From: Desulfobulbaceae bacterium
GTDB lineage: Bacteria > Desulfobacterota > Desulfobulbia > Desulfobulbales > Desulfocapsaceae
DNA length: 64,000 bases
Assembly: GCA_011390165.1 (NCBI GenBank)
Contig: JAABSV010000009.1
Span: 1-64,000, forward strand
Direction of reading: 5' to 3'
Positions 36,022-63,200 of the stretch are shown here, one piece after another; within the stretch, counting starts at the first letter, position 1; each line of letters starts with the position of its first letter. The notes under the pieces were generated by a model, which saw only the letters and a list, made by a program, of their open reading frames with translations, was not told where the DNA came from and searched no databases. The translations under genes and the position numbers were made by a program.

Positions 36022-36729
36022 TCATGTCTTCCAGAATTCCGAGCCATAATCGGCGCCGGGTTCAGCCGTTTTCGTTGGGGCGGTGAGGGACGAGAAAGAA
36101 ATTTCTTCCCTGGAGGGATGCAATGCATCCCATTCCCATTGGCAGGGATTGTCGGCGACATACTGGCGAATACGGTTTACTTCCCATTCATTGCGGATGA
36201 CATGCTCCCAGTAGTTGCGTTGCCATACCGGTCTGCCGGGTGTCTGGCGAATTGCGTTGATACGTTTGGTTACTGCAGATTTGAATCCGGCCACCACCGC
36301 ACCGACAGATTTCGGTTGTGGCCCCGTAGAGGCGACCGGCCGGTCGCCCTTGGCTGGTGGTTTGCCCTCGACAGGCCTGTTGCCTCCCAATGGTAGGGTA
36401 CCCTCAAATGAGCCGTCGGCCCTGGGGCAACAGCCCATAGCGGAAATCACCAGAATTGCATGAAAATGATTTGGCATCACCACCCATTCATCCAGTTCGA
36501 TTTCGCTGCGAATGCTGGCGGTTTTCAACCATTCATCGGCAACCACATGCCCGGCGTCGTTTATGTGCATGGTGGGCGACCGGCCGGTCGCCCCTACGAT
36601 TTCACCGAACAGACATTGCCGGTTGTGGGTACAGATGGTGAGGAAATAGGCCCCCGCCTGGGAATAGTCGTATCCCTGCAACCGGGTGGATCGGCGACGA
36701 TGGATGTTCGATCGGGATGTGTCAATCAT
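36022..36729 (-). CDS. REP-associated tyrosine transposase (RAYT, Y1_Tnp/IS200-like) with REP sequences inside the gene
   Basis: 235 residues. The HUH motif is at 87-91 (NHFHA, H88 and H90) and the catalytic tyrosine is probably Y190 in IRQYVADNPCQW. N-terminal GAYFLTICTHNRQCLFGEI and the PVWQRNYWEHVIRNE segment are family features. Two peptides are out of keeping with homologues: GATGRSPT (46-53) and GDRPVAST (128-135). They are translations of REP palindromes at 36574-36593 and 36331-36348, and GNRPVEG (117-123) comes from a decayed third copy. All are in frame and lie in loop positions outside the catalytic motifs, so the enzyme may still be active. RAYTs are single-copy transposases thought to mobilise REP/REPIN sequences. 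Confidence 0.92.
   Translation of the reverse strand: MIDTSRSNIHRRRSTRLQGYDYSQAGAYFLTICTHNRQCLFGEIVGATGRSPTMHINDAGHVVADEWLKTASIRSEIELDEWVVMPNHFHAILVISAMGCCPRADGSFEGTLPLGGNRPVEGKPPAKGDRPVASTGPQPKSVGAVVAGFKSAVTKRINAIRQTPGRPVWQRNYWEHVIRNEWEVNRIRQYVADNPCQWEWDALHPSREEISFSSLTAPTKTAEPGADYGSEFWKT
36331..36348. repeat. REP palindrome a1, inside the RAYT gene
   Basis: GGCGACCGGCCGGTCGCC, a perfect 18-bp palindrome, translated in frame as GDRPVA in the transposase. Confidence 0.9.
36366..36384. repeat. Decayed REP-like palindrome inside the RAYT gene
   Basis: Centre CGACAGGCCTGTTG keeps the GGCC core and outer symmetry of the REP but with substitutions. It is translated as part of NRPVEG. Confidence 0.5.
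36574..36593. repeat. REP palindrome a2, inside the RAYT gene
   Basis: GGGCGACCGGCCGGTCGCCC, a perfect 20-bp palindrome followed by CTAC, which marks its right end. It is translated in frame as GATGRSP. Confidence 0.92.
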
Positions 36730-36817: not shown

Positions 36818-36839
36818 GGGGCGACTGGCCGGTCGCCCC
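36818..36839. repeat. REP copy a3
   Basis: Matches the palindrome with one change (GACTGGCC for GACCGGCC) and extends to GGGG/CCCC arms, followed by TAC on the right. Confidence 0.88.
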
Positions 36840-36872
36840 TACAATAAATCCGGCACTATTTGATCGCATGGT

Positions 36873-36892
36873 GGGCGACCCGCCGGTCGCCC
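36873..36892. repeat. REP copy a4
   Basis: GGGCGACCCGCCGGTCGCCC, one base from the consensus palindrome, inside the first tandem unit. Confidence 0.85.
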
Positions 36893-36927
36893 ATACAATA
36901 AAACCCGGCACTATTTGACCGCATGGT

Positions 36928-36946
36928 GGGCTACCCGACGGTCGCC
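36928..36946. repeat. REP copy a5, decayed
   Basis: GGGCTACCCGACGGTCGCC keeps the right arm but has three changes in the left arm and centre; inside the second tandem unit. Confidence 0.7.
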
Positions 36947-37041
36947 TCTGCAATAACCCGGTGCCGTGGTTGTCAATGATGGTTTTTTGTGACCCGTCGG
37001 CCGAACCTGCAATGGGTACTGTGACCGACGGCGCACCGTAG

Positions 37042-37061
37042 GGGCGACCGGCCGGTCGCCC
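37042..37061. repeat. REP palindrome a7
   Basis: GGGCGACCGGCCGGTCGCCC, perfect, preceded by GTAG, so oriented opposite to a2 and a3. It lies 38 bp past the end of the glycosylase gene. Confidence 0.92.
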
Positions 37062-59715: not shown

Positions 59716-59735
59716 GGGCGACCGGCCGGTCGCCC
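59716..59735. repeat. REP palindrome b1
   Basis: GGGCGACCGGCCGGTCGCCC, perfect, preceded by GTAG. Confidence 0.92.
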
Positions 59736-59844: not shown

Positions 59845-59863
59845 GGGCGACCGCCGGTCGCCC
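59845..59863. repeat. REP copy b2 (short centre)
   Basis: GGGCGACCGCCGGTCGCCC lacks one central base; it is followed by CTAC, so it is inverted relative to b1, 110 bp away. Confidence 0.88.
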
Positions 59864-60022: not shown

Positions 60023-60042
60023 GGGCGACCGGCCGGTCGCCC
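60023..60042. repeat. REP palindrome b3
   Basis: GGGCGACCGGCCGGTCGCCC, perfect, preceded by GTAG as in b1 and inverted relative to b2. Confidence 0.92.
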
Positions 60043-62983: not shown

Positions 62984-63005
62984 GGGGCGACCGGCCGGTC
63001 GCCCC
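62984..63005. repeat. REP palindrome c1
   Basis: The 20-bp palindrome with one extra G and C on each side, starting six bases after the trkH stop and followed by TACGG. Confidence 0.92.
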
Positions 63006-63123: not shown

Positions 63124-63142
63124 GGGCGACCGGCGGTCGCCC
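63124..63142. repeat. REP copy c3
   Basis: GGGCGACCGGCGGTCGCCC, short-centre form, preceded by GTAG; first unit of the tandem duplication. Confidence 0.88.
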
Positions 63143-63182: not shown

Positions 63183-63200
63183 GGGCACCGGCGGTCGCCC
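63183..63200. repeat. REP copy c4
   Basis: GGGCACCGGCGGTCGCCC, copy of c3 with a one-base deletion in the left arm; second unit of the tandem duplication. Confidence 0.85.

Follow-up and report, generated by a model that had tools for sequence, protein, structure and literature searches.

The 64,000-nucleotide stretch of Desulfobulbaceae DNA analysed here (the window) contains a RAYT (TnpA_REP) gene that carries copies of its own REP palindrome in frame. We consider it likely that this group 4 RAYT gene houses two cognate REPs, which are tolerated in loops of the protein and kept as DNA, and that helix alphaC of the protein probably reads the REP stem. Both copies are present in the window gene, at two sites and in two reading frames. 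Among related genes, such in-gene REPs are enriched, match the flanks of their own genes, covary in sequence with alphaC and are conserved at synonymous positions. The placement of the REP peptides in loops rests on the alignment and on a published structural model. The features of the window are listed below by position, those outside the gene without strand.

36022–36729, minus strand: RAYT (TnpA_REP) gene, 235 aa, uninterrupted (ORF, profile and structure-database matches)
36160–36162, minus strand: codon of the presumed catalytic Tyr190, context YVADNP (from sequence)
36256–36306, minus strand: helix alphaC, aa 142–158, VGAVVAGFKSAVTKRIN, at the position of the DNA-binding helix alpha3 of E. 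coli TnpA_REP (helix by homology)
36331–36348, minus strand: linker REP between HUH and alphaC, 18-nt palindrome, 0 mismatches, encoding GDRPVA
36367–36384, minus strand: decayed REP-like stretch, 5 of 18 mismatches (counted by eye), read GNRPVEG
36460–36477, minus strand: MPNHFH, the HUH motif, aa 85–90 (NHFH, aa 87–90; from sequence)
36574–36593, minus strand: pre-HUH REP, 20-nt palindrome, 0 mismatches, within GATGRSPT, at the site after FGxI(V)
36820–36837: REP adjoining the RAYT gene, 1 mismatch
36874–36891: REP adjoining the RAYT gene, 1 mismatch
36929–36946: decayed REP adjoining the RAYT gene, 3 mismatches
37043–37060: REP adjoining the RAYT gene, exact
59717–59734: distant REP outside ORFs, exact
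60024–60041: distant REP outside ORFs, exact
62986–63003: distant REP, exact, directly past the stop of an ORF resembling TrkH (named by eye)

The window RAYT and its palindromes

The 235-aa ORF matched the profiles NF047646 REP_Tyr_transpos (61.3 bits, in two stretches) and Pfam Y1_Tnp (21.3 bits) below their curated cut-offs of 80 and 23, respectively, and inserts may split the former match. E. coli TnpA_REP (PDB 4er8), the only solved structure matching the window RAYT family, was matched by sequence at an E-value of 0.0028 with the ORF and of 1.8e-8 with a profile of 73 sequences; by these comparisons the ORF is homologous to TnpA_REP, though it falls under both cut-offs. The HUH motif and the single Tyr in a Y...NP context are both present, and their catalytic role is predicted.

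In-frame REPs within the cognate tnpA_REP gene were described by Quentin et al. (2018) as a unique feature of subclass 2.4, generally lying between HuH and Y and peripheral in a structural model, and the same authors mapped RAYT group 4 of Bertels et al. (2017) onto this subclass (PMC6006769). The window gene shares with subclass 2.4 the NH[IFV]H motif (NHFH), the WQ motif (within WQRNYWEH) and a variable insert between beta3 and alphaC that, in the alignment, holds in-frame REPs; it differs in reading YVADNP, off the YIxNNP consensus, and in carrying one copy before HuH. With respect to the double-foot form of the palindrome (GTAG...CTAC), the window REPs carry one foot or the other, and a relative labelled Desulfobacteraceae (L030) has one copy with both. 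Judged by these motifs, membership of subclass 2.4, or RAYT group 4, is probable. Since in-gene REPs have been published for subclass 2.4, the window gene belongs to a known kind.

Other systems resemble it in part. GTAG-tagged palindromes in coding regions were also reported by Di Nocera et al. (2013; PMC3733652), but in varied genes, many of them for replication or repair, whereas those of the window lie in the cognate transposase. The Rickettsia palindromic elements, as cited in that paper, likewise sit in frame within ORFs, but they are tagged CGTC, and the paper assigns no dedicated transposase to CGTC REPs. E. coli TnpA_REP (4er8; PMC8266576) has the same HUH/Tyr core and a DNA-binding helix between HuH and W; unlike the window RAYT, it belongs to group 2, with a shorter linker and a bulged REP.

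Within the gene, the linker and pre-HUH palindromes are both perfect, in agreement with the preliminary description, which had reported two intact in-frame REPs and one decayed copy; the latter (36367–36384) is weak when taken alone. L030 and two further relatives, L114 and L115, also have degraded DRP/NRP peptides resembling its GNRPVEG, located upstream of their intact REP. The same description rightly assigned the copies to the gene's own REP family, as the same word adjoins the gene and recurs elsewhere in the genome, and rightly placed the peptides outside the catalytic motifs: they occupy length-variable segments, with NHFH and Tyr190 intact. Of the two perfect copies, the one within GATGRSPT precedes HUH rather than falling between it and Tyr. 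On either strand, GTAG...CTAC reads as V-G-A..., as R-G-... or into a stop, so that two of the three frames are open, the same two on both strands. Both GDRPVA and GATGRSP can therefore occur, and the window RAYT reads a single DNA word in both of these frames (GDRPVA and GATGRSPT).

Across the genome, the 18-nt REP word was found exactly at 8 places, 6 of them in the window, and with one mismatch at another 8. Allowing up to three mismatches yielded 63 places compared with 47 for a reversed control pattern, so three-mismatch matches are mostly noise. The copies that flank the gene all lie on its upstream side (36820–37060). Those at 36820, 36874 and 37043 are located outside ORFs, as are those at 59717, 60024 and 62986. 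Apart from the RAYT, exact or one-mismatch copies overlap four ORFs of this genome, which gave no Pfam match at an E-value of 0.001 and may be spurious. Shortened variants lacking 1–2 nt were also seen close to the exact copies, at 59845–59863, 63125–63141 and 63184–63199, and resemble the shorter REP form of L114 and L115.

Occurrence of in-gene REPs among relatives

Related loci compared with the window RAYT (labelled L with a number) were analysed in two sets. Set 1 comprised 106 genes including the window gene; 80 loci, from named genomes, were the best of 498 relatives, and the remainder came from the genome, family and order to which the window belongs. From the 113 ORFs found, five repeats of the same gene (L111, L112, L113, L119 and L134) and two spurious ORFs (in L068 and L074) were removed, and loci L123, L138 and L139 were without an ORF. 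For set 2, loci were taken from other orders of the phylum; 80 of 88 yielded 82 genes, and no gene was recognised in the remaining eight. Two genes are common to both sets (L081 = L189 and L109 = L263), and set 2 includes one close pair. A protein tree built from 104 of the 106 set 1 genes was poorly resolved, with 22 of 101 inner branches well supported.

Linker hairpins were present in 86 of 106 set 1 genes and 79 of 82 set 2 genes, compared with codon-shuffled means of 10.6 (maximum 17) and 8.8 (maximum 14). Set 1 in-gene hairpins that recur in the flanks numbered 56 in 64.1 kb (42 of 106 RAYT genes; 0.87 per kb). Neighbouring ORFs held 19 in 423.6 kb (15 of 362 ORFs; 0.045 per kb), an approximately 19-fold difference in density. 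In set 2, 44 of 82 genes held 68 such hairpins (1.34 per kb) and 7 of 140 control ORFs held 21 (0.16 per kb), a density about 8 times higher in RAYT genes. The control ORFs may themselves contain spurious REP-overlapping frames, an effect that runs against the measured enrichment. Moreover, among set 1 in-gene hairpins of at least 8 pairs, 54 of 153 matched their own flanks, versus 337 of 16,065 comparisons with other loci; the remaining 99 had no match within the short flanks compared. A linker REP is thus ordinary for this RAYT family, and the window gene is not an exceptional case.

These counts bear on the explanation that the REP peptides are ordinary family sequence, that is, conserved peptides of the RAYT fold rendered palindromic by codon bias. 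Peptides resembling GRGTACRAPT or VGAxxxxPL do recur in relatives from several phyla, as this explanation would have it. Nevertheless, the shuffled genes and the own-flank matches both argue that the REP peptides are not ordinary family sequence, and the window gene, which reads the same DNA word in two frames, speaks against it as well; we regard the explanation as hardly credible. The preliminary description had itself considered that the same peptides might turn up where no REPs exist; instead, the peptides vary between genes, and the hairpins preferentially match their own flanks. Between the two open frames, VGA outnumbered the other by 34 to 11 in set 1; this did not replicate in set 2 (30 to 32), and a stable frame bias towards VGA was rejected. 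Other RAYT subclasses, taken as a control, supplied 11 genes in 20 loci, at least one of them doubtful (L159), which is too few for a test of uniqueness; two of the 11 were flagged, one at a stretch edge and one in a tandem pair.

The second RAYT of the window's genome, its sister gene (L002; G000:C64, 1255–2085, minus strand), is without the pre-HUH peptide and is 5 aa shorter at that place. Its linker carries a different REP, one with GGGGCACGGCATGCCGTGCCCC (read GRGTACRAPT), which recurs in its own flanks, and its helix belongs to the RSFKS class. Additional exact copies of the core of this REP were located at C32 and, beyond the window, at C98:65149 and 90506. A C-terminal fragment of another RAYT lies at a contig end of the same genome (G000:C29:3–167, L004).

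The two REP sites and the preservation of the palindrome

The spacing from FG to HUH was 39 aa in 77 of the 91 set 1 genes in which FG was found. Large departures were confined to the window gene (44), L050 (44), L128 (59), L069 (60) and L073 (70), and smaller ones to four genes at 41 aa and one at 38; the spacings of L055, L061 (26), L075 (165) and L137 (44) depend on which FG is chosen. Recurring REPs occupied the FG–HUH turn in 5 of 106 genes (the window gene, L069, L073, L128 and L130), and the turn of L050 holds, by eye, a decayed match to the REP of that locus. In set 2, the spacing was 39 in 66 of 73 genes, and in L261 (47) the turn contains a recurring REP; the very large spacings in this set come from extended frames in which an FG-like sequence was matched a long way upstream. 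Spacing and recurring REPs together identify the pre-HUH turn as a second, rarer REP site.

In the alignment, the pre-HUH copy is missing from the sister gene, L030, L114 and L115. The GTA codon that precedes it could be the gene's own Val, with GTAG as a pre-existing target; GTAG at this offset was found in only two uninterrupted relatives (L032 and L132). In contrast, all 18 nt of the linker REP are identical in L030, at the same place and in the same frame (GDRPVAPTGP, versus GDRPVASTGP in the window RAYT). At the linker place L114 has a REP one base shorter and L115 the same short form with one central change, and REPs in the flanks of both loci likewise have the shorter form. By this comparison of sequences, the linker copy is older than the pre-HUH copy.

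Synonymous positions were better conserved within the REP codons than in neighbouring ones. In four peptide classes (22 genes), fourfold third positions were identical at 81–94% in REP codons against 26–47% in the helix, and elsewhere in the same genes at 35–52% after W and 27–54% before HUH; these classes were chosen by peptide motif and cover part of each helix class (for example, 6 RSFKS and 3 GAFKT genes). In addition, REP variants alter both arms jointly (L117 and L122 versus L002 and L047). Both patterns indicate that the DNA palindrome is kept, not the peptide alone, whether selection on the DNA or renewal by copies outside the gene is responsible. Better preservation of the palindrome inside genes than outside was considered and rejected: pairing was 0.90 in in-gene copies (n = 61) versus 0.82 outside (n = 77; Mann-Whitney p = 0.003), and by locus family it was higher inside in 19, lower in 11 and tied in 5, but the outside sample had omitted perfect seed copies, and outside pairing is about 0.88 once these are counted.

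DNA-level conservation would also suit an autoregulatory role, in which the in-gene REPs would limit expression of the RAYT, either as folds in its mRNA or as binding sites for the protein on its own gene or transcript. The predicted minimum free energy of the window RAYT mRNA was −271.6 kcal/mol against a mean of −249.1 kcal/mol (z = −3.6, 20 shuffles). In this fold, which the preliminary description had proposed as a check, the linker and pre-HUH REPs can base-pair with one another, enclosing the HUH codons, but any two copies of one palindrome would do so. Furthermore, REP number and position differ among relatives, and 20 of the 106 set 1 genes are without a linker hairpin; autoregulation appears improbable on this evidence.

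A more serious competitor is that the copies are passive debris, left by REPs that hop locally and persist neutrally in tolerant loops, with neither maintenance nor any special link to alphaC. Such an account would explain why the insertions occupy length-variable segments, why a decayed copy adjoins an intact one in the window RAYT, and why, with the seed copies included, the palindromes are about equally well formed inside and outside genes. It does not fit the excess of fourfold identity in REP codons over the other codons of the same genes, the identity of the linker REP in L030 across all 18 nt, or the covariation of REP and alphaC described below, and we hold it to be a possible but rather unlikely account.

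Under the preferred reading, of cognate REPs kept as DNA, REPs presumably mobilised by the RAYT would spread in its vicinity, and landings within the gene would survive given an open frame and a protein that tolerates extra residues. The tolerant places would be the linker between the HUH strand and alphaC and the turn after FGxI(V). In-gene copies would remain REPs at the DNA level, their sequence tracking the cognate family, presumably through selection on the DNA or renewal from copies outside the gene. Helix alphaC, adjacent to the linker REP, probably reads the REP stem, a contact proposed here for group 4; if it does so, helix and REP are expected to change together.

Covariation of helix alphaC with the REP

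The partial Mantel correlation between in-gene REPs and alphaC was 0.405 in set 1 (n = 79) and 0.480 in set 2 (n = 72), with 0 of 500 permutations in either set, compared with 0.05 and 0.05 for the N-terminal segment, 0.08 and 0.02 for the C-terminal segment, and 0.15 and 0.10 for the HUH strand; phylogeny is incompletely removed in these tests, and the protein tree is weak. Because in-gene REP and alphaC are adjacent on the DNA, joint transfer could inflate the in-gene correlation. For REPs up to 300 nt outside the gene, the correlation with alphaC was 0.249 in set 1 (n = 58, 0 of 300 permutations) and 0.288 in set 2 (n = 54, 0 of 500); alphaC ranked first of the four segments, the N-terminal segment of set 2 reaching 0.112 (4 of 500). 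With 1000-nt flanks, the set 1 value dropped to 0.173 (n = 62).

In nearest-neighbour comparisons alphaC also came first. For 110 of 151 genes, the nearest neighbour by alphaC shared the REP (similarity of at least 0.8); choosing the neighbour by the HUH strand gave 64, by the N-terminal segment 44 and by the C-terminal segment 38. With outside REPs, the counts were 66 of 112 for alphaC versus 45, 38 and 34 in the same order. Among pairs of below-median core similarity, they were 83 of 151 for alphaC, 40 for the HUH strand, 12 for the N-terminal and 14 for the C-terminal segment.

A scan by position, numbered from the F that an invariant K follows in alphaC (FK), covered 148 of 188 genes, with 7 set aside as having no helix motif, 27 no REP, and 6 being short or ambiguous. 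Positions F-5, F-2, F-1, F+2, F+3 and F+4 covaried with the REP in both sets (r of 0.22–0.37, sets combined) and are spaced roughly as one helix face. F-8 gave 0.18, and F-7, F-4, F-3, F and F+5 gave at most 0.07. The control helix alphaA reached at most 0.22 in either set, some positions lying at 0.21–0.22. In 4er8, the corresponding stretch is RWREIKKQFT, in which K82 stands two residues before F84, so that with the register set by eye on F84, E. coli K82 falls at F-2. This lysine touches REP base C27 from the DNA-binding helix alpha3, and contact of alpha3 with other REPs has been suggested (PMC8266576).

Helix classes differ in their commonest REP half-stem, as follows.

AGFKS (14 genes, including the window gene): GGGCGACCGG, 8 REPs
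RSFKS (15 rows, including the sister gene): GGGCACGGC[AG], 15 REPs
GAFKT (12): GGGCGGTTCG, 11 REPs
RGFKI (11): GGGCGAAA[AG]A, 7 REPs
QWFKT and HRFKT: two REP types apiece

Over these 17 residues, the window helix VGAVVAGFKSAVTKRIN departs from the L175 helix VGAVVRGFKSAVTKRIN at F-2 only, and the REPs of the two genes are unlike (similarity 0.59, against a mean of 0.565 over all pairs). REPs of the AGFKS genes L030, L164, L218 and L219 resemble that of the window gene at 0.91–0.95; those of the AGFKS genes L120 and L115 also score 0.59, which counts against a code, although in L115 the low value arises because its REP is one base shorter.

Collectively, these sequence relationships suggest that the palindrome matches the protein helix expected to read it. 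We lean, by a small measure, towards a group 4 code in which alphaC residues F-5, F-2, F-1 and F+2 to F+4 would specify the stem just inside GGGC, the in-gene REP beside the helix then being a hard-linked record of that specificity. A mobile cassette of helix plus REP is not claimed, as inter-segment correlations were mostly low and the tree was weak. That RAYTs and REPs coevolve at the level of the whole protein had already been reported by Nunvar et al. in 2010 (PMC2817692). Helix–REP covariation belongs to the present analysis and was not found in the portions of the Quentin et al. account available (PMC6006769), and no report of it at the level of positions was found in the titles and abstract openings turned up by a literature search. 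As judged from these sources, what is new here is the localisation of the covariation to alphaC and the table of helix classes and REPs.

With 4er8 the only match among solved structures, a detailed picture of REP reading exists for a single group 2 protein, and the group 4 genes with their own REPs provide many natural enzyme–substrate pairs. If the match of helix and REP is true, REP specificity would be predictable from few residues, and the diversification of REP families with their transposases would be directly testable.

Some relatives contain longer open frames that include the RAYT. In L068, a 612-aa frame from 1530 on the plus strand begins with a part that by eye is Fic-like (HPFLDGNGRLGR), continues into the RAYT with no intervening stop and holds three in-frame recurring REPs, an apparent Fic-like/RAYT fusion through REP sequence. 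A 545-aa frame of L049, from 1448 on the plus strand, is radical-SAM-like (CSIRCRHC, by eye) and continues in frame into the RAYT. The 429-aa open frame of L235 (G615:C65) has two RAYT matches and is perhaps a tandem fusion.
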